Below, piece by piece: positions 1,350-14,862 of a DNA stretch of 64,000 nt. The notes below the pieces were generated by a model. The model was given only the letters and a program-made list of their open reading frames with translations. It ran no database searches and was not told the DNA's origin. The DNA is from Thermoplasmata archaeon (GTDB lineage: Archaea; Thermoplasmatota; Thermoplasmata; Lutacidiplasmatales; UBA184): contig JAKIWE010000003.1 in assembly GCA_022750195.1 (NCBI GenBank), positions 62,001 through 126,000 on the forward strand, in the 5' to 3' direction. Position 1 is the stretch's first letter, and each line of letters opens with the position of its first letter. Made by a program: the position numbers and the translations under genes.

Positions 1350-1859
1350 ATGGCCGAAACCGGTCCCCGAGCCCCAGAGTCGTCGAAGGCCTCCCTCGCC
1401 GAGACGGTCGGTCGCTCCCTCGGGCGCGTGCGCGCCGTCGCTGCCGCTCTCGACCGCCACTCCGAGGAGCTTGTGGCGCTCGCGCCGACCCCGGTCCACG
1501 ACGTTCGTCGATCCGTGGCCAACCTCGAAGCGGAGCTGCTCGAAGCGCACCCACCGCTGGTCGCCCGCTGGCTGCGGGAGTCGGACCTCACGGGGGCCGA
1601 GGCGGATCGCCTCGCCTCCGACCACCGATGGTTCCCGGAAGGGTTCGCCGAGATCCGGGGACTCCTCGACGTGGTCGAGAGGGACGATCATGGGGGGAAC
1701 CGCCAGGCGGTAGGACAGTACGGCCGGATCCTGCTCGAGGCGATCCGCCGGCACCTCTCGGAGGAGGAGGCCCTTCTCCTCTCCGGAGACGGGCCTGTTG
1801 CGGAAGGTCGAGGCTCAAATGCGGGGTCGGATACGCTCCCCCCGCCTTCCAACCGATGA
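1350..1859 (+). CDS. Helical protein resembling hemerythrin HHE domains
   Basis: 169 residues, almost entirely alpha-helical. A His/Glu pattern recalls HHE cation-binding proteins: DRHSEEL near residue 35, EAHPPL near 69, SDHRWF near 93 and, most typical, RRHLSEEEALLL near 138. If the fold is right it would bind a di-iron centre for O2, NO or metal sensing. The spacing of the histidines is not textbook, so this is a resemblance only. The tail after residue 145 is low-complexity. It lies 9 bases behind the MFS exporter and is likely in the same transcript. ATG 1350 is the only sensible start. Confidence 0.55.
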   Translation: MAETGPRAPESSKASLAETVGRSLGRVRAVAAALDRHSEELVALAPTPVHDVRRSVANLEAELLEAHPPLVARWLRESDLTGAEADRLASDHRWFPEGFAEIRGLLDVVERDDHGGNRQAVGQYGRILLEAIRRHLSEEEALLLSGDGPVAEGRGSNAGSDTLPPPSNR

Positions 1860-1977
1860 GCGACGGTCTCCGAGCCCACGAAGCGCCGCCTCTGGGGCGG
1901 CCGACCGGTGGGGGGGGCGGCCCGATTCTGGGTTTCAGCGGTGAGAATCGACGGCCCGCACGACTAGCCCCGACGGG

Positions 1978-2388
1978 GTGCTGACCGTGGAGGCTCCGAC
2001 CCCGTCCTCGAATGCCGAGCTGCCGCCACCGCCGAGGGACCGCAAAGAGCGGATCCTGGACGCACTTGGGGACCCGGTCGCGCGCCAGATCATCCTCATG
2101 CTGAACGACGCGCCGCGCTCCGCCCAGGAGCTGCTTGTTGCGAACCACGTCCCACAGAGCACGCTGTACCGCCGCCTCCACGAGCTCGAGGAGCTCGGGG
2201 TGGTCGCCGTCCAACGGACGGTGATCACGGAGGAGGGCAAGCGGGTCGACCTCTACCGCAGCCTGCTCGAAGAGTTCAAGGTGGAGCTTCGCTCCTCCCG
2301 CCTCGAAGTGACGGTCAAGTACCGGGACCTCCAATCCGAGAGGGTCCGGGAGCTCTGGGGCGCGGTGCGTAAGGAGGCGGGCCGGTGA
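1978..2388 (+). CDS. ArsR-type winged-helix transcriptional regulator
   Basis: 136 residues. After a 20-residue proline-rich leader comes a winged helix: ILDALGDPVARQIILMLND, then the recognition helix QSTLYRRLHELEELGVV and the wing. The C-terminal third is helical and probably dimerises. DNA-binding repressor/activator by family; no cysteine sensor is seen, so metal sensing is unlikely. Its stop overlaps the start of the next gene by 4 bases (GTGA), so the two are translationally coupled. This regulator plus small membrane-protein pairing is common in euryarchaea. The start is GTG 1978; GTG 1987 is an alternative. Confidence 0.8.
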   Translation: MLTVEAPTPSSNAELPPPPRDRKERILDALGDPVARQIILMLNDAPRSAQELLVANHVPQSTLYRRLHELEELGVVAVQRTVITEEGKRVDLYRSLLEEFKVELRSSRLEVTVKYRDLQSERVRELWGAVRKEAGR

Positions 2389-2672
2389 TCGAACTGGCGC
2401 CGCTGATGCCGATGTTGATGGTCTGGGCCCCGGTGCTCGCGCTGGGGGCGCTCGTCGCCTTCTACACCTTCCGAGCCTGGCGGAAAGAACACTCTCGCGC
2501 GATGCTCGCGCTCGGTTCGGGATTCCTCCTGCTCTCGATCGTCCCGGGGACCCTCTGGTTCGGGCTCTACCTCTCCACCGACGACGCGTTCATGGCCGAG
2601 CTCGGCTGCGCGGCGATGATGTCCGCCGGCTTCGTCGCGATCGTCTACGCGTTGCGGACCCGCTTCGCCTGA
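2385..2672 (+). CDS. Small three-helix membrane protein coupled to the ArsR-type regulator
   Basis: 95 residues with three predicted membrane helices (about residues 10-28, 40-60 and 70-90) and a short cytoplasmic RAWRKEH loop. Its GTG start overlaps the regulator stop by 4 bases. The size, topology and coupling resemble membrane proteins that accompany ArsR-like regulators in haloarchaea (DUF7521-like), which suggests a membrane input to the regulator; that role is inferred. No catalytic motif is seen. Confidence 0.65.
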   Translation: MIELAPLMPMLMVWAPVLALGALVAFYTFRAWRKEHSRAMLALGSGFLLLSIVPGTLWFGLYLSTDDAFMAELGCAAMMSAGFVAIVYALRTRFA

Positions 2673-2683
2673 TCGTTTCGCCG

Positions 2684-3496
2684 TCAGACCCTTTCGCCGG
2701 GGGAGATCGGCCCCAGCGGGAGGTCGAGGGCCGCGTAGAGGGCGCGGATATTGTCCCCGAGCTCGAGCCGTCGCATCGGTCCCAGATTGAGCAAACGGAC
2801 GCCGGCGCGGTCCCGCAGCCCCGGGAGGGGCGAGGGGGGCTGCTGGACCACCTCGTGCCGTTCCGGGCGGAATCGCTCGGAGGCCAGCAGGATATCGAGC
2901 TCTTTGCGCGTGTACTCGATCACGTGCCCGTTCACCTCGCCGGAGTTGCGTGGGTAGCGGCGGGGGTCCTTGATCGACCGGCCCAGCAGCAGCCGGAGTC
3001 GGTTGGTGAGCCGTGCCTGGTTCGGGGTCGTGATGAGCAGGCGCCCGCCCGGGCGGAGATGGCCGTGGAGCTCGCGGAACAGGAACAACGGGTTACCGAG
3101 CAGATGTTCGACGACCTCGACGAGCAGGATCAGATCGTAATCCGTGGGCAGGGCGGCCAGGCCCGCGGAGACCCCGAGCTCGACCGTGTGGAACGCGGAG
3201 ATCCCGAACTTCGGCTCGACCTCCAGCGCTCGAGGCCGCGGAGCGCCGACCTCGGCCAAATGGTAGTCCCCCCCAAAGGCGGCGTGAAGAGCCACCGCCA
3301 GGCTCCCGACCCCCCCTCCCAGGTCCAGGACCTTCCGCCCGTGGAGCGGCGCCAGCGGAGCGAGGAATCGGAGGATCGACGGATACCGCCGGGCCTGGAA
3401 GGCGAGGTACGGCCACTGATCGGGGGGGATCCCGAGCTCCGTCCAGTACCGCGGCAACAGGTCGGCGACCGGGTCGTCGGAGCGGGTTCCGTCCAT
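2684..3496 (-). CDS. Class I SAM-dependent methyltransferase
   Basis: 270 residues. SAM-binding motif I is clear (KVLDLGGGVGSLAVAL, about residues 49-64), with a post-I acidic strand, motif III (DLILLVEVVEHLLG) and motif IV-like LRPGGRLLITTPN. The C-terminal part (RSIKDPRRYPRNSGEVNGHV) recalls UbiE/Coq5- and glycan-linked methyltransferases that act on lipids or sugars. The substrate is unknown. Start ATG 3496. It is divergent from the AHSA1 gene and convergent with the small membrane-protein gene (gap 11 bases). Confidence 0.75.
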   Translation of the reverse strand: MDGTRSDDPVADLLPRYWTELGIPPDQWPYLAFQARRYPSILRFLAPLAPLHGRKVLDLGGGVGSLAVALHAAFGGDYHLAEVGAPRPRALEVEPKFGISAFHTVELGVSAGLAALPTDYDLILLVEVVEHLLGNPLFLFRELHGHLRPGGRLLITTPNQARLTNRLRLLLGRSIKDPRRYPRNSGEVNGHVIEYTRKELDILLASERFRPERHEVVQQPPSPLPGLRDRAGVRLLNLGPMRRLELGDNIRALYAALDLPLGPISPGERV

Positions 3497-3570
3497 CGTC
3501 GAGCCGTCCGGCGAACGACGCAGACGGCGAGCGCTATCAAAGGTGCGGCGTGCGCCGCCGAGGCGGAAAG

Positions 3571-3579
3571 ACTATTATC
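3571..3579 (+). promoter_or_regulatory. TATA-like element for the AHSA1-family gene
   Basis: CTATTATCC lies 24 nt before the GTG at 3604. This spacing is what a leaderless archaeal transcript would need and is the main reason for choosing GTG 3604 over the upstream ATG at 3550. Confidence 0.45.
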
Positions 3580-3603
3580 CGGCGGACGGCCCCTGCCGCC
3601 GAC

Positions 3604-4059
3604 GTGTTCGACGAGCCCGACCCGATCCTCATCCAGGTGACGATCCCGCTTCCGCCGCCGATGATCCTCGCTGGGTTCTCCGACCCGAAGCAGCTCGCCG
3701 CGTGGCTGTGCGCCTCGGCCGAGGTCGAGCCACGGATCGGCGGAAAGTACGAGCTCACGTTCACCGACGAAGCCTCCTTCACCAGCCACGGCACCGTGAC
3801 ACGCCTCACCCCCGAGGTCGACATCGGCTTCACCTGGGAAGCGCCCTCGGCGTACGCCGCGATCATGAACGGCCCGCCGTTCGCCACGAACGTCTACGTG
3901 CGGCTCCAGGACTCGCCGGAGGGGGTCGACGTCACCCTCGAGCACTCCGGGTGGAAGAAGGGGGACGACTGGGAGGAGGCCCGCTCCTGGCACTTCCGGC
4001 TCTGGGACGACCGGTTGCACCGATTCAAGGACTACCTGCTGAAGGCGGCGTACGGTTAG
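3604..4059 (+). CDS. AHSA1/SRPBCC-family ligand-binding protein
   Basis: 151 residues from GTG 3604. START/SRPBCC fold typical of the AHSA1 group: an N-terminal strand DPILIQVTIPLPPPMIL, an ADLAAWL-like helix (FSDPKQLAAWLC), strands around GGKYELTF and DIGFTWE, the VDVTLEHSGW strand and a long C-terminal helix. These proteins bind hydrophobic ligands or act as Hsp90 co-chaperone relatives; the exact role is not predictable. An upstream ATG (3550) would add an Arg-rich 18-residue tail that falls across the TATA-like element, so it is not used. The 3' end overlaps the convergent surface-protein gene by 35 bases. Confidence 0.7.
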   Translation: MFDEPDPILIQVTIPLPPPMILAGFSDPKQLAAWLCASAEVEPRIGGKYELTFTDEASFTSHGTVTRLTPEVDIGFTWEAPSAYAAIMNGPPFATNVYVRLQDSPEGVDVTLEHSGWKKGDDWEEARSWHFRLWDDRLHRFKDYLLKAAYG

Positions 4060-5737
4060 CCGGGTCCGGCGCGTTCGACCCCGGCGACGCCGGGCCCGTG
4101 GGGGGCGGTCGCGACCCGAGCCGGTCGGAGTAGCTCTTGAGCGCCATCGCCGGCACGGGTCGGTTCCGGCGGCGCCGCCGCTCGAGGAACACGAGAAGCC
4201 CGACGACCACGCCCACGGCCAGGAGCGCGAAGTAAGGCGTCAGCTGCGCCAGCAACGAGGGGCCTCCTCCCCCGGTCCGCACCTCGACGATGACCTGCTT
4301 GCTGCCCCACTCGCCCAGTCCGGCGACGGTCGCCGTGATCGTGACAACGCTTGGGGTCGGCCCAGCGGAAAGGTTCACGGTCAGACCTCCCGCGTGGTCC
4401 GTGACCCCCGAGTTCGGCGTCAACGATGCGTCGCCGGAGGCGGAGAACTCGACGATCGCCCCGGGGACCGCCACTCCGGCGAGGTCCACGGCATGGAAGT
4501 CGAGCTCGATCTGGCCGTTCGGCCGTAGGACCGGCGAGGTCGGCGACACCGACAGCAGGACCTGGGTCGGGGGCGAGAGCGCGACCGAGGCGATCGTTTG
4601 GCCGACGTAGCCGAACAGCGTCACGTTCGCCGTCACCGGGTCGAGCAGGCTCGCCGTGACGTTCGGCGTGCGGAACAGCGAGTTCGCCGCGCCGGAGCCG
4701 TTGGTGACCGGCGAGCCCGGAAGAAAGACGCCCTGATGGGCGTCGTGAAGGTAGACCGAGACCGCCGGAAGCGGCGCCCCACCGATGGTGCTCACGGAGA
4801 CGGTCGCGACCACCGGGATCGTCGCGACGACCGCCGGCGTATCGAACGTAAGCCCGACCCGCACCTGGACCGGGCCGCCGTTCCAGAGCCCGGTACCGTT
4901 CGTCACGTTTCCGATCGCACTACCGGTCTCGACCTCCCCGGGAGCGAGGGTCGGGTGTTGGTTGCGCCCCTCGACGCCCCACTGCGCACTCGCCGCCCCG
5001 GAGAAGCTCGCCGTCCCGTCGGTCGGCAGGTGCCAACCTCCGCCCGTGAGCACCGCCAGGGCGAGCGGCAAGGTCACGACGCTGGGGAGCGACGGGGTGC
5101 TCGGGAAGAGCGCCACTTGCGAAAAACCGATCGAGCTCAGCCAGGTCGCCTGGGGGCTCCCAAAGTCGAAGACCCCAGCACTGGCGTTGCCGGCGAACAT
5201 CGCGCCGTTGACGGTGAGGGTCCAGTTGGTGAGGTTCGTGTGGACGAGCTCGAAGTCGTAGCTGTCCCCCGGGACGAGGCTCAACGTCGACCAGTAGGCG
5301 AGATGGACGTTCTGGTTCGTCCGGTTCGTGAACACCGAAAAGAACGGGACCGCGGAGGTCGACGGGTTGGCGAACAGCCCGAACACCGCCTCGAAGTTGC
5401 CGATGACCTCCTCGGCGCCTAGCTGGTAGGCGGAGTTGGAGGGGAGGGGGTTCGACGCGAAGTCCGTGACGTTGAGTCGGAGGCCGCTGTTCGGGACGGC
5501 CGACGGGTCCGACGTCGAAACCAGGACCCTGCCCTCTCCGCCGGCGTTGGGCAGACTGCCGACCGGGCGGAACGCCGGCGCGATCTCCGCGGAGGGCGAG
5601 GGCTCTCGATCAGCGCTCAGGTGACCGGTGCGGATCGGCGGACCGGGGGCCGAGCAGGTCGGGAGGCCCGCGACTACGAGCAGAACGACGACGAAGGCTC
5701 CCCAGAGCACCCAGCGTCGAGAGCGAGCAGGGCCCAT
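4025..5737 (-). CDS. Large secreted, C-terminally anchored surface protein with Ig-like repeats
   Basis: 570 residues. Signal/membrane segment at residues 8-25 (VLWGAFVVVLLVVAGL), a long Ser/Thr/Asn-rich extracellular part with many N-X-S/T sequons, a lectin/LamG-like stretch (EVIGNFEAVFGLF to NLTNWTLTVNGAMF), two beta-sandwich Ig-like modules (one near LLSVSPTSPVLRPNGQIEL resembles bacterial Big_1), and one C-terminal helix (YFALLAVGVVVGLLVFL) followed by RRRRRNR as stop-transfer, then a short cytoplasmic tail. Likely an S-layer associated or adhesive glycoprotein. ATG 5737 was chosen because it puts the signal segment at the N-terminus; the frame is open to 5797. Function beyond surface location is unknown. 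Confidence 0.7.
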   Translation of the reverse strand: MGPARSRRWVLWGAFVVVLLVVAGLPTCSAPGPPIRTGHLSADREPSPSAEIAPAFRPVGSLPNAGGEGRVLVSTSDPSAVPNSGLRLNVTDFASNPLPSNSAYQLGAEEVIGNFEAVFGLFANPSTSAVPFFSVFTNRTNQNVHLAYWSTLSLVPGDSYDFELVHTNLTNWTLTVNGAMFAGNASAGVFDFGSPQATWLSSIGFSQVALFPSTPSLPSVVTLPLALAVLTGGGWHLPTDGTASFSGAASAQWGVEGRNQHPTLAPGEVETGSAIGNVTNGTGLWNGGPVQVRVGLTFDTPAVVATIPVVATVSVSTIGGAPLPAVSVYLHDAHQGVFLPGSPVTNGSGAANSLFRTPNVTASLLDPVTANVTLFGYVGQTIASVALSPPTQVLLSVSPTSPVLRPNGQIELDFHAVDLAGVAVPGAIVEFSASGDASLTPNSGVTDHAGGLTVNLSAGPTPSVVTITATVAGLGEWGSKQVIVEVRTGGGGPSLLAQLTPYFALLAVGVVVGLLVFLERRRRRNRPVPAMALKSYSDRLGSRPPPTGPASPGSNAPDPANRTPPSAGSP

Positions 5738-5807
5738 CAGCGCGGAAAGGCGGTGCACCTCGCATGAGCATTTGCCCATCCCGCGGGCCGCGCCCACGGT
5801 GGGCGCC

Positions 5808-5999
5808 TCAGCCGGTCGGAGTGAACTTTGGGCAGGTGAGCTCGCCGCAGATCGCGCAGGAGGCCGAAGGGTCGAGTCGGAAGCTTCCGCCGTGACGCTC
5901 CTCGACCGGCAGGACGCGCATGTGGTGGGTCGGGAAGTGACCGCACCGGCAGCGACGCCGCCCTGCCGGGGTGTCGATCGAACCGCTGCGCGCGGCCAT
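5808..5999 (-). CDS. Small zinc-ribbon protein
   Basis: 63 residues from ATG 5999. Metal-ligand pattern CRCGHFPTHHMR followed 20 residues later by CAICGELTCPKF: four to five Cys and two or three His that could form one or two zinc sites. No other domain. It lies between the surface-protein gene and the divergent GcvH-TusA gene. A TATA-like GTAAAGG on the same strand about 22 nt before ATG 5999 supports that start over GTG 6011. Function unknown; a nucleic-acid or protein adaptor would be typical. The Cys/His pattern, not homology, is the evidence that it is coded. Confidence 0.5.
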   Translation of the reverse strand: MAARSGSIDTPAGRRRCRCGHFPTHHMRVLPVEERHGGSFRLDPSASCAICGELTCPKFTPTG

Positions 6000-6079
6000 C
6001 GGCGGTAGCACCAGCCCCGGGCCCTTTACGTTGTGGACGCAGGGCGAAGCGGTAAGTTCCGACTCGATTCCGCCTCGGC

Positions 6080-6808
6080 ATGGAGGTCGAGGGGTGCCCG
6101 CTGCCGGACGACCGCCTCTACGACCTGGAGAACGAGCTCTGGGTCCGGTTCGAGCCCGACCAGCAGGTCGCTACCGTGGGGTTCCTCGCCCCGTTCGCGT
6201 CGTTCATCGGCAAGGTGCAACGGGTGGAGTACCGAACGACGAACGGTCGGGTCGACCGCGGCCGTGGCGTGGCGATCGTGGAGAGCATCCGTTTCACCGG
6301 CGCCGTGCGGATGCCGATCGACGGACGCATCCTCGAGGTGAACCGGCTCCTGGCCGAACGACCGAAGTGGATCAACGATGACCCGTACGGTCGGGGATGG
6401 ATCTTCCGGGCGGCGTCGGCGGCCCCCGTCCGCCCCGGGACGGACGGCCTCGAGAGCGCGGGTGCGATCGCCGACCGGCTGGCGGAACGGATCCGTGAGC
6501 GGCACGTCCGCTGCTGGCGCGCGGCGCCCGACGTCGAGCTCATCGAGGTCGGCGCCGAGTGCGCGGCGATCCTCGCCCGCCTCGACGAGGAGATCGCGCG
6601 CCGGGCCCCGGACGATGTACTGTTGCTCGTCACCGACGACCCGACGAGCCCGATCGAGCTCGTGCGGTGGTCGGACCGGACCGGGCAGAGCGTGGTCGAC
6701 CACCGCTCCGAGGGGACGCTCCACCAGTTCCTCATCCGGAAGGAGGCGAACCCGCAGCCCCGCCTGCGCGGGGCCGACGGCCGCCGACCGTCGGCGGGTG
6801 AGCCGTAG
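6080..6808 (+). CDS. GcvH-like domain fused to TusA-like domain; lipoyl lysine replaced by Arg
   Basis: 242 residues. Residues 12-112 follow glycine-cleavage H protein from end to end: YDLENELWVRF, VATVGFLAPFASFIGKV, VAIVESIRFTGAVRMPIDG, ILEVNRLLAERPKWINDDPY, GRGWIFR. The lipoyl lysine of GcvH (ESVKA) is Arg71 here (ESIRF), so lipoylation is not expected. Residues 151-232 follow TusA: GAECAAIL has Cys161 at the sulfur-carrying Cys (family CPxP, here CAAI), then DDVLLLVTDDPTSPIELVRW and TLHQFLIRKE. A cytoplasmic persulfide carrier or scaffold in sulfur transfer is inferred. It is convergent, 3 bases apart, with a rhodanese gene. The domain calls come from reading the sequence against remembered family members. 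Confidence 0.78.
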   Translation: MEVEGCPLPDDRLYDLENELWVRFEPDQQVATVGFLAPFASFIGKVQRVEYRTTNGRVDRGRGVAIVESIRFTGAVRMPIDGRILEVNRLLAERPKWINDDPYGRGWIFRAASAAPVRPGTDGLESAGAIADRLAERIRERHVRCWRAAPDVELIEVGAECAAILARLDEEIARRAPDDVLLLVTDDPTSPIELVRWSDRTGQSVVDHRSEGTLHQFLIRKEANPQPRLRGADGRRPSAGEP

Positions 6809-6811
6809 ACC

Positions 6812-7672
6812 CTACGGCTTCTCGATCGGGCTACGGATCTGGTTGCCCCACTCCGTCCAGGAGCCGTCGTAGTTCCGCACGTCAGGGTAGCCGAGCAGAT
6901 ACTTCAGCACGAACCAGGTGTGGCTCGACCGCTCCCCGATCCTGCAGTAGGTGATGACGGGCGCAGCGGCGGTGACGCCCTTTCCGCCGTAGAGCGAGTC
7001 GAGGTCGCGGCGGCCCTTGAACGTCCCGTCGTCGTTGACCGCCTGGGCCCAGGGGATGTTGACCGCTCCCGGGATGTGACCGCCGCGCTGGGCGTGCTCG
7101 TTGGGGTACTCCGGAGGCGCGGTGATCTCGCCGGTGAACTCCTTGGGGCCCCGGACGTCCACGAGCTTGAGCTTCCCGTCCTTGACGTGGGGGAGCTCGC
7201 GTCGAACGTCGTCGAGGTAGGCGCGGAGCTTCTCGTCCGGCGCGCCGGCGGTGAACGTCGAGGCAGGGTGGGAGGGGAGCTCCTTCGTGAGCGGCCGGTC
7301 CTCGGCGATCCACTTCTTCCGCCCGCCGTTCATCAGGCGGAGGTCCTTCACGCCGTAGTACTTGAACGTCCAGAAGGCGAAGGCCGCGAACCAGTTGTTG
7401 AAATCGCCGTACAGCACCACCGTCGTGCCGTCGTCGATCCCGGCGTGGCGGAACAGCGAGGTGAGCGCCTCTCGGCCGAGCAGGTCTCGCCGGATAGGGT
7501 CGTTGATGTCCTTGCGCCAGTCGAACAGCACGGAGCCGGGCACGTGCCCGAGCTCGTAGTTCGCGGCCGGGTCGTAGTCGACCTCGGCGACACGGACCTT
7601 CGGGTCCTTCAGGTGGGCGTTGACCCATTCCGTGTCGACCAGCACTTCCGGGTGCGCGTAGGCATCGCTCAT
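6812..7672 (-). CDS. Two-domain rhodanese-type sulfurtransferase
   Basis: 286 residues with two tandem rhodanese domains. The N-terminal domain (VAEVDYDPAANYELGHVPGS to VLYGDFNNW) has Asp instead of the catalytic Cys in the loop YGDFN and is the inactive half. The C-terminal domain carries KLVDVRGPKEF and the active loop YCRIGERSSHTWF, the form seen in thiosulfate sulfurtransferases of the CysA/SseA type. The enzyme moves sulfane sulfur from thiosulfate or a similar donor onto its Cys and on to an acceptor; the neighbouring TusA-like protein is an obvious candidate. Cytoplasmic. ATG 7672 start; TTTATC about 36 nt upstream may be the TATA box. Confidence 0.88.
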   Translation of the reverse strand: MSDAYAHPEVLVDTEWVNAHLKDPKVRVAEVDYDPAANYELGHVPGSVLFDWRKDINDPIRRDLLGREALTSLFRHAGIDDGTTVVLYGDFNNWFAAFAFWTFKYYGVKDLRLMNGGRKKWIAEDRPLTKELPSHPASTFTAGAPDEKLRAYLDDVRRELPHVKDGKLKLVDVRGPKEFTGEITAPPEYPNEHAQRGGHIPGAVNIPWAQAVNDDGTFKGRRDLDSLYGGKGVTAAAPVITYCRIGERSSHTWFVLKYLLGYPDVRNYDGSWTEWGNQIRSPIEKP

Positions 7673-7875
7673 TGCTCCCCCTCACCGCGCTCGACGGTGA
7701 AGGAGATAAAGCGTAGCTGTAACGATTCGCTTTCCTCGGTAGTGCTCGGGGCCCCGAAGCGAGATCTACTCGGATGCCCCCCTTCAGCAGCGTTTCGCCG
7801 CCGGCCTGACGCACACCGTTCACCCACTTCGAACAGGCCAAATAGGGTCCCGTCGACCACTCCCCGCAAGTCCCC

Positions 7876-9177
7876 ATGCGACTATCCTTTCAGTACCGGC
7901 TGTACCCATTAGCCGACCAGCTTCCCATACTGCAAGCCCACCGCGCTGAACTCGCGTACCTTTGGAATCACGCTCGCGCACAGCGCCGCGATGCGTGGGC
8001 GAGGGACCGTCGATCGATCCACTACCTGGACCAGCAGCGCGAGCTCACCCGTTGGCGAGCTTACGATTCTCAAGGTCTTGGTCGACTCTCTGTCCGGGTC
8101 GCCCAAGACTGTCTTCAACGCCTAGACCTTGCCTTCTGCGCGTTCTTCCGGGGCGTTCAGGGGGGCGAGCGGCCGGGCTACCCCCGAATCAAGCGGGAGG
8201 TCAACTCGTTTACGTTCCCCACGCTGCGAGATCCGATCGTTATGAGTCGGAACGGGACCTGGCGACTGAAGGTCCCCAAACTCGGGGAAATCCCTCTCAG
8301 GTTACACCGGCCGCTACCCCAGGGAGCGGAGGTGAGAACCGTCACAGTCCGCCATGTGGCCAGCGCTTGGTACACTGACCTCTCTCTCGAGATTCCCGAC
8401 CCCGCCCCACCCCCCCGCGAATCACCCCAAACGCCAGTCGGTGTCGACCTCGGCCTCACTCATCTCGCGACTCTCTCGACTGGTGAGGTGATTGAACGAC
8501 CGGGGTTCCTTCGAAAAGGGGAGTGGCGGCTTCGGAAGGAGCAGCGTCGGCTCTCGCGTAAGCGCCGCGGGTCCCACCGTTATCATCGTCAGCGGGTGCG
8601 TGTGGAAAGGGCCCACGAAAGGGTGCGTCGTCAGCGACGTTGGTTCGCCCACCGGATCTCTCATGACCTCGCGGAGCGTTTCGACATGGTGGCGTTCGAG
8701 GACATCAACATCGCCGGTTTGATGGAACGGACTCGGCATGCGAAGAGTCTGTCGGACGCCGGGTGGGGAATCCTCCGGGAGCTGACGGAGTACAAAGAGA
8801 CCCTACGCTCCGGGCGGTGCCTCCGTGTTCCAGCTCGGGGGACCACGCAGGGGTGTTCTAAGTGTGGGAGGCGGGCTGACCCTCCTCTGGAACTTCACAC
8901 TCGAACATACCGGTGCCCATGCGGCTATGAGGGCGATCGGGACTTCAACTCGGCGAGGAACGTCCTCGCTCGAGGAATCCATCTCCTTTCGGAGGAGCTA
9001 CGCCGGAGCTCGGCGGAAGTCAAGTGCGTGGAGAGCGGGCCTACACGGGCATTGGGAGGCCGAAGGGTTTACCAGCGTCGGCGCGCCTGCTTCAAGAAGC
9101 GCGAATACGGGATCGAGGTAGGGGCACCATTCGAACGTCCGACCTGGGCTGTCCGACTGGCGGTACCAATCCCGTGA
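7876..9177 (+). mobile_element. tnpB: Solitary TnpB (IS200/IS605, IS1341-like) RNA-guided nuclease gene
   Basis: 433 residues, the usual TnpB length. N-terminal OrfB helix-turn-helix/WED region (LSFQYRLYPLADQL), then a split RuvC nuclease with all three acidic residues: Asp191 in GVDLGLTHLAT, Glu275 in VAFEDINIAGL, Asp356 in DRDFNSARN. A zinc finger sits between (CSKCG at 327-330, CPCG at 347-349). The gene looks intact and potentially active. There is no tnpA within reach, so it cannot transpose alone. TnpB proteins use a right-end RNA to cut at the empty donor site; structured sequence after the stop fits this. It is inserted between the rhodanese gene and aIF1, and its GC is visibly lower than that of the neighbours. 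Confidence 0.93.
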
Positions 9178-9189
9178 ACAGTTACGCCT

Positions 9190-9229
9190 AGGCGAATCGC
9201 GGAACCAGCCGCTCTGGGGCTATTCGCCT
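9190..9229 (+). ncRNA. Candidate right-end / omega-RNA stem-loop of the TnpB element
   Basis: Thirteen bases after the tnpB stop, AGGCGAAT (9190-9197) pairs perfectly with ATTCGCCT (9222-9229). The 24-base loop holds an inner stem GCGG/CCGC (9199-9202 with 9209-9212). IS200/IS605 right ends form such hairpins, and the 3' end of tnpB mRNA is processed into the guide RNA. The guide would begin just past the element's right boundary, which I cannot fix without an empty site. Confidence 0.5.
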
Positions 9230-9240
9230 TCGCGGCTGAG

Positions 9241-9258
9241 GAGCCCGGATGCGGGCTC
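9241..9258. terminator. Perfect 7-bp hairpin overlapping the aIF1 stop codon
   Basis: GAGCCCG-GATG-CGGGCTC. It lies where the minus-strand aIF1 gene ends (stop complement 9257-9259) and 12 bases past the TnpB right-end stem-loop. It may be a transcript-end hairpin of aIF1 or part of the mobile element's right end. No T-rich tract follows on the minus strand. Confidence 0.4.
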
Positions 9259-9577
9259 AATGGCGGCCACGTTTGGGCAGTTGGGCGTTCGAGACCTCGA
9301 CCGTCTCGGGGTCGAAGCCGAGCTTGCTCAGTTCGTCACGGATGCGGGCCCGGTGGTCCCCCTGGAGGTACACTTCGCCGTCGACGACGCTCCCGCCGGT
9401 CGCGAGACGGTTCTTCAGCGACCGGGTCGTTTCGGCGAGGTCGACGCCCGGGGGGAATCCGGAGATCACAGTCGCGGGCTTGTTGTAACGGCGCGGCTCC
9501 GCGCGCACGCGGATCCGGGCGGTCTCTCGATCGAGCGCGGAGAGGATCTCGTCGAACTCTTCGTCCCCCATGTGCAC
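9257..9577 (-). CDS. Translation initiation factor aIF1 (SUI1)
   Basis: 106 residues, the archaeal SUI1 size. Core strands and loops are evident: IRVRAEPRRYNKPATVISGF, LKNRLATGGSVVDGEVYLQG (the basic loop that contacts the ribosomal P site) and DELSKLGFDPETVEV. aIF1 binds the small subunit and secures start-codon selection fidelity. The ORF begins MHMGDEEF; ATG 9571 (MGDEEF) is an equally good start. Single-gene unit; the TnpB element sits directly behind its 3' end. Confidence 0.92.
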   Translation of the reverse strand: MHMGDEEFDEILSALDRETARIRVRAEPRRYNKPATVISGFPPGVDLAETTRSLKNRLATGGSVVDGEVYLQGDHRARIRDELSKLGFDPETVEVSNAQLPKRGRH

Positions 9578-9760
9578 AAACTTTCCTAAGAGCTCCGGAC
9601 AACGGTCGAGCAGGACGGTCGTGGCCCCGATTCTCGAGCACCGGGTACCCCCCGCGACGCTCGGCGGAGGCGACCGACAGTTCGATTTCGCGTGGGCACC
9701 GACCCTCCGATGACGGGAGAGGGTATCAACATTGGGGGTCGGCAGGGAGGTGCGGCGGGC

Positions 9761-10534
9761 CTACGTGCTCTTCCACCGGTAGAGTCGTAAAGCGAGCACC
9801 GTCCCGAGCGCCGCCGAGCCAACCAGCGTCGCCCCGTAGAGGAGCATCGTCGCGGCGCTGAGTGAGCCGGGGGCGAGGGCCCCGCGCAACAGCAGCGCGG
9901 CGTACGTCGAAGGGAGGCACAGGGCTACGTCGCGCCAGAGCGGCGGGACGGCGCTAAGCGGGTAGTAGAGCGGCGTCAGCATCCCGACGACGGTGAAGAC
10001 GAGGTTGCCGACCGGCCAGATCTCCCGCTGGCTCTTCACCCGGCTCGAGATCGCGATGCCGACGGCCGAGAAGAGGATCCAGATCACGGCCACGGCGCCG
10101 ATGAGGATGAACCAGAAGGCGACCGGGACGGTCGCGACCGACGCGAGCACGACGGCCAGGACGACCAGCGCCGGCGCCGCCGGGATCAGGTTGGAGAGCG
10201 CGATGCCGAACAGGTAGCGGACCTTTCCGAGGGGGGAGGCGACGAACAGGTCCTGCAGCCCGGTGTGGATCCGCCAGGTCGCCGAGTCGCCGAGCACCCA
10301 GTTGCCGATGTTCTGCGTCGTGAACAGCATCGCTCCGACGACCTCGGCCGGGAAGAGCGAGGCCGGTGAGATGATCCGCAGGAAGTACAGGAAGATGAAC
10401 GGGATCAGGATCGGAGCGACCGTCGCCGCCGGATTGCGGCTGATCCACCGCCAGCCGATGATCGCGAACGCCGGCACGACCTCGCCGTGGCGGCTCTCGC
10501 CCACCGTCTTTGGCGGCGCGAGGGCGGTGCTCAT
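9761..10534 (-). CDS. ABC-2 type transporter permease, second subunit
   Basis: 257 residues with six hydrophobic segments in the ABC-2 arrangement: two after residue 25, a pair at about 125-160, then VFTVVGMLTPLYYPLSAVPP (the family signature loop) and a last helix ending LALRLYRWKST. Third gene of an ATPase-permease-permease operon read leftward; its start overlaps the preceding permease stop by 4 bases. Such exporters move drugs, lipids or polysaccharide; the substrate is not predictable. It pairs with the 10531-11289 permease as a heterodimer. Confidence 0.82.
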   Translation of the reverse strand: MSTALAPPKTVGESRHGEVVPAFAIIGWRWISRNPAATVAPILIPFIFLYFLRIISPASLFPAEVVGAMLFTTQNIGNWVLGDSATWRIHTGLQDLFVASPLGKVRYLFGIALSNLIPAAPALVVLAVVLASVATVPVAFWFILIGAVAVIWILFSAVGIAISSRVKSQREIWPVGNLVFTVVGMLTPLYYPLSAVPPLWRDVALCLPSTYAALLLRGALAPGSLSAATMLLYGATLVGSAALGTVLALRLYRWKST

Positions 10535-11289
10535 TGTTCCCTCACCGACCGGCGCGACCAGTAGATCGCGAAGAGGAACATCGCCGACGCCTCGACCACG
10601 AGTCCGACGACTGCGAGGGTGATCTCCCCGGACGACAAGAGCCCGGGGGAGAGCGTCGTCTGCACGAGCCCGGTCGCCGCGCTCGGCGGCAGGAGCAGGG
10701 CGAATGGGACCGCGGCGGCCGGTTGGAGAAGCCCGAAGGGGTAGAAGACCGGCGGGAGGATGCCGAAGAGATTGTAGAACAGGCTCGAGTACGGCCAGAT
10801 CGTTCGCATGTCGCGGAAGATCGTCGAGACGACGTAGCCGAAGCTCACCGCGAACAGCCAGACGGTGACGCAGCTCAGCACTAGCGTGAGGGCGGAGAGC
10901 GTGGAGAGATGCAGGATCACCTCGGCGACCGCGAACAGCACGAGGATCGGCGGGAGGTAGGCGAGCAGCACCCCGAGGGCCATCCCGAAGAAGTATGCCT
11001 CAGGGGCGAGGGGGGAGGCGCCGTACAGCTGGTTGAGCCGGTGGTCGATCCGGACGTACGCCGCCTCGTTCCAGACCCGCTGACCCATCGTGAAGAAGGA
11101 GAAGACCACGGCGCCGACCAACGCAGCAGCCAGGTACTGCGGCGCGAGGATGGTGACGAAGATCAGCAGCACCGCCTGCACCGTCATCGAGGTGGCCACG
11201 GCCATGTTCTCGTGCAGCTGGACCCTAAGCTCGGTGACCAGGAACGGCCCGACGCCCCGGAAGCTCGGCAGGCGGGGGAAGGCACCCAT
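10531..11289 (-). CDS. ABC-2 type transporter permease, first subunit
   Basis: 252 residues, six predicted helices. Family features: an N-terminal cytoplasmic helix (FLVTELRVQLHENMAVATSM), the long mid-membrane pair, FYNLFGILPPVFYPFGLLQP as the re-entrant signature loop, and a C-terminal helix ending with IYWSRRSVREQ. It starts 3 bases after the ATPase stop and overlaps the next permease by 4 bases. It lacks close identity to its partner, so an ancient duplication or heterodimer is likely. Confidence 0.82.
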   Translation of the reverse strand: MGAFPRLPSFRGVGPFLVTELRVQLHENMAVATSMTVQAVLLIFVTILAPQYLAAALVGAVVFSFFTMGQRVWNEAAYVRIDHRLNQLYGASPLAPEAYFFGMALGVLLAYLPPILVLFAVAEVILHLSTLSALTLVLSCVTVWLFAVSFGYVVSTIFRDMRTIWPYSSLFYNLFGILPPVFYPFGLLQPAAAVPFALLLPPSAATGLVQTTLSPGLLSSGEITLAVVGLVVEASAMFLFAIYWSRRSVREQ

Positions 11290-11292
11290 CGA

Positions 11293-12273
11293 CTAGCTCG
11301 CCTCGTCGTCGATCGAACGCCCGACGGCCCGGAGGAACGCCTCTTCGAGCGTGACCGGTCCGACCGTGGCGTTGAGCCCGTGGCGGACGGCGACCTCCAT
11401 GATCTCACCGAGCCGGGGCGGCTCGGTGATCACGTGCACCGCCTCGCCGTCCCCCACGCAGTGGCCGAACGAGGCGAAGAGCGCCTCGACCTCCTTCCCG
11501 CCCTTGACCGAGACGCGAAGCGTTCCGCCGACCCGGTGCTTCAGCGCGTCCGAGGTCCCTTCGACCAGCACGGTTCCTCGGTCGATGATGTAGAGGCGTT
11601 CGGCGAGCGCCTCGGCTTCGTCGAGGTAATGGGTGGTCAGCAGGATCGTCGAACCTTTCCGGGTGAGCCGGCGGAGGCACTCCCAGACCGCCCGGCGAGC
11701 GAACGGGTCCATGCCAATGGTCGGCTCGTCGAGGAAGAGGAGCGGGGCCTCGGTGGCGATCACCGTAGCGACCATCGTCCGCTGGCGCTGGCCCCCCGAA
11801 AGGGTGACGCTGAGGCGGTCGGCGACGTCTTCGATGCCCATCTGGGCGAGGGACTCCGCCGTACGCGAGAGGGCGGTCTCTCGCGAGAGGCCGCGGGCCC
11901 TCAGGTAGGTGTACACTTGCTCGCGCGGCGTGAGGTGGAAGAACGGCTTGCCCTCCTGCGGCACGACCGCAATCAGCGCCCGGACCTGGTCGGCCTCCCG
12001 GTCCACGTCCTGGCCGAAGACGAGGACCTCCCCAGAGGTGGGCGTCAGGAGCGTGGAGGCGATCTTCAGGAACGTCGTCTTTCCCGCACCGTTCCGGCCG
12101 AGCAGGCCGACTCGCTCGCCGGGGCGGACCGTCATCGAGACGCCGCTCAGAGCTTCAACGGCCCCGTCGTCCGGAGCGCGCCCGCTCCGAGCTGTCGCCC
12201 GGCGCCAGCCCGCGAAGCGGCGGGTCTGGTAGATCTTCCGCACGTCGGTCGCGCGGAGGGCGTCACTCGTCAC
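11293..12273 (-). CDS. ABC exporter ATP-binding protein (ABC-2 / DrrA-like)
   Basis: 326 residues. Walker A GRNGAGKTTFLK (about residues 59-70), Q-loop near VVPQEGKPFFHL, signature LSGGQRQR, Walker B LLFLDEPTIGMD, H-loop LTTHYLD. The C-terminal 80 residues (TLRVSVKGGKEVEALFASFG) form the regulatory extension seen in DrrA/NatA-type ATPases. First gene of the exporter operon. The GTG start at 12273 is fixed by a TATA box 23 nt upstream, so the mRNA is probably leaderless. Confidence 0.92.
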   Translation of the reverse strand: MTSDALRATDVRKIYQTRRFAGWRRATARSGRAPDDGAVEALSGVSMTVRPGERVGLLGRNGAGKTTFLKIASTLLTPTSGEVLVFGQDVDREADQVRALIAVVPQEGKPFFHLTPREQVYTYLRARGLSRETALSRTAESLAQMGIEDVADRLSVTLSGGQRQRTMVATVIATEAPLLFLDEPTIGMDPFARRAVWECLRRLTRKGSTILLTTHYLDEAEALAERLYIIDRGTVLVEGTSDALKHRVGGTLRVSVKGGKEVEALFASFGHCVGDGEAVHVITEPPRLGEIMEVAVRHGLNATVGPVTLEEAFLRAVGRSIDDEAS

Positions 12274-12296
12274 GGCGGCGGCCGAGCCGACCCCCG

Positions 12297-12304
12297 GTAT
12301 ATAA
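12297..12304 (-). promoter_or_regulatory. TATA box of the ABC exporter operon
   Basis: TTATATAC on the minus strand, with 23 nt between it and GTG 12273. Sequence and spacing match an archaeal leaderless promoter. Confidence 0.7.
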
Positions 12305-12570
12305 TGCCCGAGCCGTGAAAATTGTTCGACTCCGAAAGCCCGGATTCCACCTCAGAACGGAGCGGAGGCCCAAAGAAGCTGGTACTCGGTGGCTCCGAAC
12401 GCGTCGGTGCGATGGAGTATCAGAGCGGTCCAGCTGAGGCCCACTCAACGCCCGCCCCAGTCGGCCGAAACTCCGGCCGAACGCACTCGAACCCGTTCAC
12501 CCGTGAGTGCCGGGACGGCCCGCCCGTTGGGCGAATCCGACCCGGGTCGTGCCGGGGGGGGCTTAACGGC
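12305..12570. other. Non-coding interval between the ABC exporter promoter and the HesB/IscA gene
   Basis: About 270 bases. I see no gene with a family signature, no tRNA and no repeat. The open frames that cross it are antisense continuations of the neighbouring genes. A GGTTCGAG-like stretch near 12490 (minus strand) lacks the T-arm and acceptor pairing of a tRNA. Confidence 0.5.
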
Positions 12571-12963
12571 TCAGCCGCAGCCGCAACCGCCGCCAGCGTC
12601 GGAGCTGTTGCCGCACGAACCGCAACCGCCTGCCTGGCCCCCCGCGTCCGGTTCGGGCAGAGTGGGGTTGGTGATCTTGAATCCGGACTCCTGGAGCCCC
12701 TCGACGTAGTCGATGACCGCACCGTTGACGAACTGCTTGCTCATCGGGTCGATCAGGATGGAGAAGCCATCGACCTTGACGACCTCGTCGTCGGGCCGCG
12801 GCTTGGCGAACGCCATGCCGAACTGGACGGCGCCACCGCCGCCCCCGCAGCAGCCGCCCCCGCCAGGCTGCGCGTACACGCGGACGCCGACCTCGGGCTT
12901 TTGGCCCGCCATGAGGCGTTGAACCTGGACTACGGCCCCAGGCTTGATCTCGACCTCGACCAT
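12571..12963 (-). CDS. HesB/IscA-family iron-sulfur assembly protein
   Basis: 130 residues from ATG 12963, which has an AGAGGA ribosome-binding-like sequence 7 nt upstream; GTG 12990 and ATG 12981 are alternatives. Core A-type carrier features: VEVEIKPGAVVQVQRLM, VRVYAQPGGGGCCGGGGGAV in place of the usual Cys-containing glycine strand, GFSILIDPMSKQFVNGAVIDYVEG (strong family match) and GFKITNPTLPEP. The C-terminus is unusually long and Cys-rich (CGSCG and GCGCG, residues ~113-130). It probably delivers Fe-S clusters to apo-enzymes such as MoaA. The Gly/Cys tail is an oddity. Confidence 0.85.
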   Translation of the reverse strand: MVEVEIKPGAVVQVQRLMAGQKPEVGVRVYAQPGGGGCCGGGGGAVQFGMAFAKPRPDDEVVKVDGFSILIDPMSKQFVNGAVIDYVEGLQESGFKITNPTLPEPDAGGQAGGCGSCGNSSDAGGGCGCG

Positions 12964-13152
12964 CGGTCTTCCTCTGCCCATTGTACGCACCGCGCCCCGT
13001 TTAAGCTCTACGCCAACAGTGGCGCGGACGATACCACCTACAACGTCACGGCCGTCTCGTGTTACCCCGGACCATACCGAGGATTCCGTCGACGCCCCGC
13101 TCCCATGGTGAGAGGAGGCGAACGCTGTCGGACGGGAGCCGGTCCGCGAGCC

Positions 13153-14862
13153 TTAACCCGAGGGGGGAGGTTGCAATCCTACCGCGGCACCCGGAGCAGC
13201 CCGGTCCAACTCCAGCGTCGTGTCCCGCCAGCAGAGCCGGGCGAGCTTGTTCCCGAGGCGAGTCGGCATTCCGAGGCTCCGGCTCAGCAGACGGACATCG
13301 TCCTTGGAGAGCTCACCGGTCAGCGCCAGGACGAGGAAGTAGACAGCGAATCCGAAGGCGATAGCCCCGAAGAGAACGTAGTACCGGCTGACCGGCAGGA
13401 CGGCGTTCAGCCGGGAGACCGCGATGAAGCTGGCCAACGCGCTGACGGTGATGAGGGCGATCGGCAGGGGTCGGATCCGGACGGCCATCAGTCGCTCCAT
13501 GAAGTAGGCGTTGACCGCGAACGCGGCGATCGAGGAGAGGAGGATCGCGACCGAGGCCGCCTCGAGGCCGTCGAGCCCGAGGTAGCCATGGAACAACGGA
13601 TCCCCCGGCGCTCGCTGGGGCATGAGGAGGAAGGCCGAAGCGAACAGCACGACGACCTGCACCGTGGTCAGGTACAGCTCGAGACGTTGGCGGCCGATCG
13701 CGTTCAAGGAGGTGCCGATGAGCTGGCTGAGCGCAAGGGGAAACGCGGAGATGGCGAGTATCGCCATCGGAATCGCTCCGGAGATGACGAACGGTCCGAG
13801 GGCTATGGGTGCGCCGGCGGAGAGCCGGAGGTACTGGCCGGTCAGAAGGATATTGATGATGTTCACGCGGTACACGGTTAGGGCGATGACGCCCGGAATG
13901 ACGAGCATCGACGTATAGCGAAGCGCCCGCCAGGTCTGCTGACGGATCTCCTCGAACTTCTTTCGCACGTGCAACCCCGCCAGTAGCGGGAACAGGGGGA
14001 CGGTGACGGCGGTGGGTAGCTGAAGGATGAGGATGCGGAAACCGTTCTCGGAGTTGAACACGTTGCCGAGGGCCCGGCCCTGGTCGGCGTAGACCAAGAA
14101 CAGGACCGCGGTGGTGGCGGTGAACAGCAAGAACATGCTTCCCATCAGCGGCGTAGCGTACCGGAACATCGACGTGGCCTCGCTGCGATGCGGCCGGCCC
14201 GCCTTCGCCAGCACCGACGGCAGCGAGATGGCGGTCGAGGCCAGCGCGCCCAGCAAATAGGCGATCGTCAGATTCCAGAGGTTCGGCCCGATCAGCACCA
14301 CCGTGATCAGGGCCGCGGTGCGGACGATCGACTCCAGGAGGACGGGGTACTGGGCCCGGATCGAGTCGCCCAGCGCAATCCACAACTGCGTGTAGACCGT
14401 CGAGACCGACCAGATCACGGGCAGGATCATGTACACCCCGAGGATCCCGAGTTCGGAAGTGCCGGTCGCGAGCCCCGCGGGGACCGCGAGCAGATAGATC
14501 GCCAGCCCCGAGACGCCCACCATCGACAGTCGGAGCACGAAGTAGGTGCCCGTGCTCGGACCGACGGGGCGCCCTCGGGCGACGAAGTAGGTGAAGGCGG
14601 TACCGATGCGCAGGTCCCCGATGCTGGTGACGGAGGACGCAATCAGGACGAACAGGCCGACGGTCCCGATGAGGGCCCGGCCGTCCGGCGTCGTCCCCGG
14701 GCCTCGCGCCAGGAAGAACGTCGAGGCGTAGCCGATCAGCTGGACGAGGATGCTGATGACGAACACTCCGGTCGAGCTGATACCGAGCCCGCGCGCCGGG
14801 CTCGGGAGTGACGGCTCGGTGACGATCACGCCGGGGGACGGTCGTTCGTCGGTCGTCTCCAC
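13153..14862 (-). CDS. Wzx-type polysaccharide/lipid-linked oligosaccharide flippase
   Basis: 569 residues with about 12-14 predicted helices and the MOP-superfamily layout. Recognisable stretches: GVFVISILVQLIGYASTFFL (first helix), YFVLRLSMVGVSGLAIYLLA, ATPLMGSMFLLFTATTAVLF (seventh helix), QLIGTSLNAIGRQRLELYL (typical 'N-A-x-G' turn). Such proteins flip lipid-linked glycans across the cytoplasmic membrane for surface glycosylation, consistent with the sequon-rich surface proteins in this window. No glycosyltransferases are adjacent. Confidence 0.75.
   Translation of the reverse strand: METTDERPSPGVIVTEPSLPSPARGLGISSTGVFVISILVQLIGYASTFFLARGPGTTPDGRALIGTVGLFVLIASSVTSIGDLRIGTAFTYFVARGRPVGPSTGTYFVLRLSMVGVSGLAIYLLAVPAGLATGTSELGILGVYMILPVIWSVSTVYTQLWIALGDSIRAQYPVLLESIVRTAALITVVLIGPNLWNLTIAYLLGALASTAISLPSVLAKAGRPHRSEATSMFRYATPLMGSMFLLFTATTAVLFLVYADQGRALGNVFNSENGFRILILQLPTAVTVPLFPLLAGLHVRKKFEEIRQQTWRALRYTSMLVIPGVIALTVYRVNIINILLTGQYLRLSAGAPIALGPFVISGAIPMAILAISAFPLALSQLIGTSLNAIGRQRLELYLTTVQVVVLFASAFLLMPQRAPGDPLFHGYLGLDGLEAASVAILLSSIAAFAVNAYFMERLMAVRIRPLPIALITVSALASFIAVSRLNAVLPVSRYYVLFGAIAFGFAVYFLVLALTGELSKDDVRLLSRSLGMPTRLGNKLARLCWRDTTLELDRAAPGAAVGLQPPPSG

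Follow-up and report, generated by a model that had tools for sequence, protein, structure and literature searches.

An H-protein fold fused to a TusA fold in Thermoplasmata archaea: a candidate sulfur carrier that mostly has arginine at the lipoyl-lysine position

Results

One gene joins an H-protein fold to a TusA fold

In a 64,000-nucleotide stretch of a Thermoplasmata archaeon genome (hereafter the window), we identified a gene in which an H-protein fold is fused to a TusA fold. The original prediction had described a GcvH-type domain fused to a TusA domain, and the fusion itself is borne out by Pfam matches to GCV_H and TusA, by a Foldseek comparison of an AlphaFold2 model and by conserved orthologues. 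Invariant cysteines at positions 6 and 145 and a convergent rhodanese gene are observations beyond those of the original prediction. The features to which we refer below are as follows.

6080..6808, + strand: fusion gene, LbpA-like H-fold plus TusA-like domain (ATG-started open reading frame, 242 aa plus stop)
6095..6097, + strand: codon of Cys6, the N-terminal LbpA-type cysteine (78/78 fusion rows)
6116..6415, + strand: H-protein/LbpA-like domain core, residues 13-112 (Pfam GCV_H; Foldseek 1onl)
6290..6292, + strand: Arg71 codon CGT, lipoyl-lysine position (alignment with 1onl and other H-proteins)
6512..6514, + strand: codon of Cys145, the C-terminal LbpA-type cysteine, immediately ahead of the TusA domain (78/78 rows)
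6551..6742, + strand: TusA-like domain, residues 158-221 (Pfam match; Foldseek 3lvj_C, 3lvk_B)
6560..6562, + strand: codon of Cys161, TusA catalytic-Cys position (Cys in 78/78 rows)
6812..7672, - strand: double-rhodanese sulfurtransferase, convergent (Pfam)
6944-6946, - strand: codon of rhodanese Cys243, CRIGERS loop (Cys243 in 60/60 distinct copies)

In the window protein, the Pfam GCV_H profile matches residues 13-111 (70.5 bits, E = 1.6e-19). A profile search of the C-terminal half returned the proposed TusA match at residues 158-221 (27.4 bits, E = 3e-6), 1.2 bits below the curated cut-off of 28.6; rescored in a whole-genome scan, this place reached 30 bits, above the cut-off. The fusion's C-terminal half is the sole TusA match at E ≤ 0.001 in a whole-genome profile scan of the window's genome, and it scores 14 bits with the NCBIfam TusA model, for which the cut-off is 78. 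Among 60 aligned orthologues, GCV_H is matched by all 60 and TusA by 59 (E ≤ 1e-3). When compared by sequence with solved structures, the protein matched the Thermus H-protein 1onl (E = 2.2e-15) and E. coli TusA (E = 0.02). Both an H-protein fold and a TusA fold are confidently predicted in an AlphaFold2 model made with the 60 aligned rows as input (mean pLDDT 95.6, pTM 0.87), which Foldseek aligns to 1onl (E = 1.2e-11, TMt 0.87, 31% identity) and to TusA of the IscS-TusA complexes (3lvj_C, TMt 0.89; 3lvk_B, TMt 0.91). An assembly or annotation artefact is ruled out by 70 distinct full-length fusions from many genome records, the remoter ones belonging to another family.

By our hand tally of the search rows (the source of the counts 44, 42, 41 and 16 used in this text), 44 of the 200 genomes sampled from the class carry the full-length fusion: 23 belong to f1, the family of the window, 13 to family f25 and 8 to family f11; two further genomes (G139 and G154) hold contig-edge fragments of the fusion and are outside the 44. 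Any match to the window protein was found in 160 of these 200 genomes, many of the matches being plain GcvH. A scan of GTDB species genomes, which reaches close relatives and so leaves room for fusions elsewhere, gave 63 loci; their records are titled Thermoplasmata or Euryarchaeota archaea, apart from L037, whose title reads 'bacterium'. When the TusA half alone was searched against 389 genomes of the phylum, 68 had matches and 321 had none; matches of at least 68 bits occurred only in f1 and f11 fusion carriers, and those outside fusion genes scored at most 38.6 bits. No version split into two separate genes was seen among the 389, in line with the predicted fusion. One stand-alone match (G036; 43.1 bits, full query) was considered as a split half and rejected, as it is an ordinary TusA with CPIP. 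In a tree of the H-domain, 31 fusions form one clade (support 99/93), which is consistent with a single origin of the fusion.

Three cysteines are invariant and the lipoyl lysine is mostly replaced by arginine

We counted residues in 78 fusion rows, of which 77 are distinct because L091 and L095 come from one genome; two loci open at a contig end (L068, L082), two that miss the N-terminal part (L092, L094) and identical sequences were left out. Cys6, Cys145, Cys161, Glu68, Glu160, Asp186, Asp187 and Glu193 are invariant in all 78. The peptides used for locus retrieval included DDPTSPIE (residues 186-193) and a stretch beginning at Cys145, so the invariance at Asp186-Glu193 and at Cys145 is partly selected. 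Fusion loci among L002-L031, plus L095-L102, were retrieved otherwise and have the same residues, and Cys6 and Cys161 lie outside all retrieval peptides.

As predicted, the arginine lies at the lipoyl-lysine position: in an alignment with solved H-proteins, Arg71 (CGT) falls on their lipoyl lysine. Of the 78 rows, 66 have Arg at this site, 11 have Lys and one has Thr, compared with Lys in 17 of 17 canonical GcvH proteins. Residue 71 is therefore not Lys in most orthologues, as had been proposed, but the description of the family as a 'lysine-less' form holds for that majority and not for the 11 rows with Lys. A quick tree built without column 71 places five changes at this site, at least four of them forced by starred branches. 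Lys or Thr is confined to f11, f25 and EA_ records, several of the last being letter-for-letter matches to f25 genomes, and the listed f1 rows are all Arg. Positive charge at site 71 is thus kept more strictly than Lys, which would argue against lipoylation as the essential function even in the Lys-bearing members. As Lys and Arg interchange here, Lys-bearing members may still be lipoylated. We consider it very unlikely that lipoylation is still the working state of those members and that the Arg members derive from a lipoylated LbpA-TusA protein as specialized or degenerate versions of it. The Lys rows, from f11 and from f25 or matching EA_ records, do have a motif that resembles the one in LbpA, but related sequences switch between Lys, Arg and Thr, and f1, which has Arg, is the largest lineage and retains all three cysteines in each of its rows.

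CPxP is the motif of TusA proteins and is seen in the sHdr-cluster TusAs of the sequences compared here. The original prediction placed Cys161 at the persulfide cysteine of TusA, with CPxP reduced to CAAI, and this agrees with what we observed: the window protein reads CAAI, and among 70 distinct fusions site 162 is Ser or Ala in 67, site 164 is Val or Ile in 62, and Pro never occurs. Glu160, which directly precedes Cys161, is kept in 78/78 rows.

Signature residues of the N-terminal half resemble those of LbpA

The N-terminal half had been assigned to GcvH. Its H-protein fold stands, but its signatures (Cys6 and Cys145) are LbpA-like, and trees decide for neither family; from the signature residues it appears to resemble LbpA more than GcvH, an assignment that could be wrong. 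According to the founding LbpA paper (PMC6067878; eLife 2018), a lysine is strictly conserved in LbpAs, and so, some archaeal LbpAs aside, are two cysteines without counterpart in GcvH, one close to each terminus. We compared 79 fusion rows (the 78 above plus the truncated L106), 11 Thermoplasmata LbpAs and 17 canonical GcvHs in one alignment. The Cys6 site is Cys in 79/79, 11/11 and 0/17 of these, respectively, and the Cys145 site in 79/79, 10/11 (the eleventh is truncated) and 0/17 (all 17 end earlier). Gly44 is found in 79/79, 11/11 and 2/17, and Gly74 in 69/79, 11/11 and 0/17. Tyr, Phe or Trp occupies site 72 in 66/79 fusions, 11/11 LbpAs and 0/17 GcvHs; the LbpA count at sites 69-72 is partly true by construction, as are those of two other groups described below ('second' and SSGKW), all three having been chosen by motifs with Lys (plus nearby Trp and Gly), while the GcvH and fusion counts there are free of this effect.

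The H-domain tree has a branch (88/83) that splits GcvH plus the SSGKW sequences from the remaining sequences, a pattern compatible with the LbpA reading. In an approximately unbiased (AU) test that included Thermoplasmata LbpAs only, neither a grouping of the fusion with GcvH (p = 0.243) nor one with LbpA (p = 0.245) was rejected. Among the unfused relatives of the window protein, the highest scores (61-82 bits) belong mainly to 146-aa proteins that have an [NG]GC motif in their N-terminal region and end in a CxxC tail; canonical GcvH scores below them, at under 60 bits. At locus L108, the neighbors of one 146-aa relative encode an LplA-type ligase, two CCG-domain proteins, an FAD oxidoreductase, TusA and DsrE-family proteins; we take this relative as LbpA because its surroundings at this one annotated locus fit the sHdr set. 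The sHdr-like cluster of L108 (DsrE, TusA, LplA-like, LbpA, two CCG genes and FAD oxidoreductase) spans positions 1750-14854 of that locus; the genome belongs to the same genus as the window.

The best NCBIfam match of the window protein is a GcvH model, far below its cut-off; the two GcvH models give 68.3 bits (cut-off 117) and 54.2 bits (cut-off 115.85). The GcvH-related model NF045810 (GcvH_rel_desulf) gives 52.9 bits for the window protein against a cut-off of 150 and matches 59 of 60 members at E ≤ 1e-3; it has 167 positions, and the match stops before the TusA part. Two other groups of GcvH-like proteins were seen. A second, very divergent one with an ES[ED]KW motif (branch length 1.45) lies near the LbpA gene at L103, L107, L108, L110, L111 and L134, and a clade with an SSGKW motif and no Cys6 occurs in families f17 and f24 (L122, L123, L127).

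The three cysteines, together with four acids close to Cys161 in sequence or motif (Glu160, Asp186, Asp187 and Glu193), could instead be ligands of a metal or an Fe-S cluster, or act as a thiol switch, in which case the fusion would be a redox or sulfane-sulfur sensor or a scaffold and not a carrier. These three Cys and four acids are kept in 78/78 rows, more strictly than the single thiol of a carrier demands, and an A-type Fe-S carrier family is encoded nearby in 22 loci. Nevertheless, we judge this explanation unlikely: Cys6 and the C-terminal Cys occur in unfused LbpA too, no classic metal motif was seen in the fusion, and the invariance at Asp186-Glu193 is partly a retrieval effect. Moreover, PMC6067878 compares the C-terminal Cys of LbpA with the sulfur-binding Cys of SoxY.

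A rhodanese is the usual convergent neighbor

We examined 72 loci, of which 65 have at least 900 nt downstream of the fusion gene. In 57 of these 65, a convergent rhodanese gene comes directly after the fusion, at gaps of -3 to 71 nt; the 57 include the window and one place that is represented twice (L091 and L095). Cys243 is the only cysteine in the window's copy of the rhodanese. The eight loci without an adjacent rhodanese are L058, L077, L086-L090 and L092, with L086-L090 and L092 being soil EA_ records. At L058 there is no rhodanese and SUI1 lies 107 nt past the fusion; therefore, the fusion can persist without its usual neighbor.

The rhodanese (E ≤ 1e-40) was found in 49 of 200 genomes: 42 of the 44 with the fusion and 7 of the 156 without it (Fisher p = 2e-33, relatedness ignored); G139, which holds a fragment of the fusion, is among these seven. 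In f1 the rhodanese occurs in 22 of 23 fusion genomes and in 3 of 7 others (Fisher p = 0.006, relatedness ignored). Two genomes, G193 and G144, have the fusion and gave no rhodanese at E ≤ 1e-40. Most f25 genomes have the two genes on separate contigs; where they share a contig they are still convergent, at distances of ~0.65 kb (G090), ~1.5 kb (G175), ~8 kb (G187) and ~44 kb (G060). Linkage of the fusion and the rhodanese is no proof of partnership, as convergent genes are not an operon.

Genes past the rhodanese encode SUI1, ABC-2 transporter proteins and an A-type Fe-S carrier. The window's Fe-S carrier gene (12571-12990, - strand; Fe-S_biosyn, E = 1.7e-13) encodes a glycine- and cysteine-rich tail, and a gene family annotated as Fe-S_biosyn mostly sits 4.6-5 kb from the fusion (22 loci). 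An OrfB/TnpB-like gene (7876-9177, + strand), with OrfB_IS605 and Cas12f1-like TNB domains by Pfam, lies between the rhodanese and SUI1 genes of the window. SUI1 is 2449 nt past the fusion here and 0.92-1.04 kb past it in 40 of the 43 other loci that have SUI1; because of this shorter spacing elsewhere, the OrfB/TnpB-like gene looks like an insertion private to the window's genome.

Lipoate and sHdr genes in genomes that carry the fusion

One alternative is that the fusion donates sulfur for lipoate or Fe-S biosynthesis, its H-like fold mimicking a lipoyl-domain client to dock on lipoyl synthase or ligase, with TusA supplying the sulfur. LipA scored above its curated cut-off in 41 of 44 fusion genomes versus 42 of 156 others, and the window's genome has LipA and two lipoate-ligase-like (LplA-like) genes. 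In addition, Glu68, three residues ahead of site 71, is invariant and the acceptor Lys is not. However, LipA is also present in entire families that are free of the fusion (f19, f22 and f29), and for this reason the co-occurrence with LipA is counted for this alternative only; no lip gene was seen among the annotated neighbor families, which are part of all the families. Taken together, these data make a role as lipoate or Fe-S sulfur donor quite unlikely.

The fusion might also serve the sHdr sulfur-oxidation complex as an accessory adaptor, uniting TusA delivery with an LbpA docking surface. LbpA (E ≤ 1e-50) was found in 17 of the 200 genomes, 16 of which carry the fusion, and the one annotated LbpA locus (L108) is an sHdr-like cluster. 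Such a role is nonetheless improbable in our view: 28 of the 44 fusion genomes gave no LbpA at this threshold, and the association of LbpA with the fusion is weak inside f1 and f11 (Fisher p = 0.10, relatedness ignored). The window's genome has only one gene with CCG domains and no LbpA match at E ≤ 1e-50, an absence that is not final for an assembly of 95.65% completeness and 5.57% contamination.

Discussion

We propose that the fusion is a two-domain carrier of sulfane sulfur that is charged by the rhodanese, with its LbpA-like half docking or relaying by cysteines without lipoate, and we give this reading, which is drawn from sequence, an even chance of being correct. Cys243 of the rhodanese would accept sulfane sulfur from a donor such as thiosulfate and transfer it to Cys161 in the TusA-like domain. 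The LbpA-like domain would have mostly given up lipoate, with Arg at the attachment site, and kept its two LbpA cysteines and the H-protein hairpin; this half would then dock the carrier on a client or pass the sulfur on via Cys145 and Cys6. We infer each of these elements: the loading with sulfur, the direction of flow, the relay and the absence of lipoate. The originally predicted persulfide carrier with an H-domain that docks is still the reading we favor, but this domain may do more than docking, given that both of its cysteines are invariant in 78 rows.

We counted the published sHdr model in favor of a carrier, as it places TusA and rhodanese as feeders and LbpA as presenter. In that model (PMC6067878), rhodanese or DsrE together with TusA deliver sulfane sulfur and LbpA is the prime candidate for the presenter; the paper also cites dihydrolipoate as an acceptor for rhodanese in vitro. 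The role of LbpA in sulfur oxidation is itself a proposal there, in which the central carrier is TusA and the protein that presents the sulfur is LbpA. Counting against a carrier are the loss of CPxP, the partial retention of the hallmarks of both TusA and LbpA, and the tree, in which the N-terminal half is not grouped with LbpA. Counting against the rhodanese as partner are the soil EA_ lineage without an adjacent rhodanese and the two genomes, G193 and G144, without one at our cut-off.

Because three cysteines are kept in every copy and the lipoyl Lys is mostly lost, these data suggest a sulfur-relay protein that works without a lipoate cofactor. A broader and more doubtful proposal is that the fusion is the core of an archaeal sulfane-sulfur pathway independent of sHdr, running from the rhodanese to Cys161 and on to the LbpA cysteines, on an H-fold that has shed lipoate. 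If so, the fusion would be a natural lipoate-free LbpA, and TusA would hand sulfur directly to LbpA-type proteins.

No description of an LbpA-TusA or GcvH-TusA fusion was found in the titles and abstract starts of the open-access literature searched. The main text of a survey of archaeal fusions (PMC11237513) does not mention TusA, GcvH, glycine cleavage, sulfurtransferase or lipoyl, and its supplementary tables could list the fusion; the main text of PMC6067878 has neither 'fusion' nor 'fused', and PMC10332631 uses the word 'fusion' four times, one of them in the abstract. The parts themselves, LbpA-like and TusA-like, are of known kinds. A natural fusion of the two is evidence that TusA and LbpA parts touch. 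Loss of the lipoyl Lys while both LbpA-type cysteines are invariant makes the role of the cysteines separable from that of lipoate, and a single-chain fusion with a single-cysteine rhodanese offers a small system for the direct study of sulfur hand-off.

The fusion can be compared with three known systems. Its N-terminal half is like GcvH (1onl, 3a7l) in fold and overall sequence, but most members lack the lipoyl Lys, Cys6 and Cys145 are extra, and scores fall far below the NCBIfam GcvH cut-offs. Its C-terminal half is like E. coli TusA (PDB 3lvj, 3lvk) in fold and in having Cys at the sulfur-carrying position, whereas it mostly has C[SA]A[VI] instead of CPxP, sits behind an H-fold and has Glu before the Cys. 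In PMC6067878, LbpA of sHdr is described as having a strict lipoyl Lys and a gene located within an hdr-like cluster or next to one; no such cluster was found at the fusion, whose annotated neighbors encode rhodanese, SUI1, an ABC transporter and an Fe-S carrier. The fusion and LbpA are alike in their H-protein fold, their N- and C-terminal cysteines and their link to sulfur transfer, and the fusion differs in having mostly Arg at site 71, an attached TusA domain and a rhodanese as its conserved neighbor.
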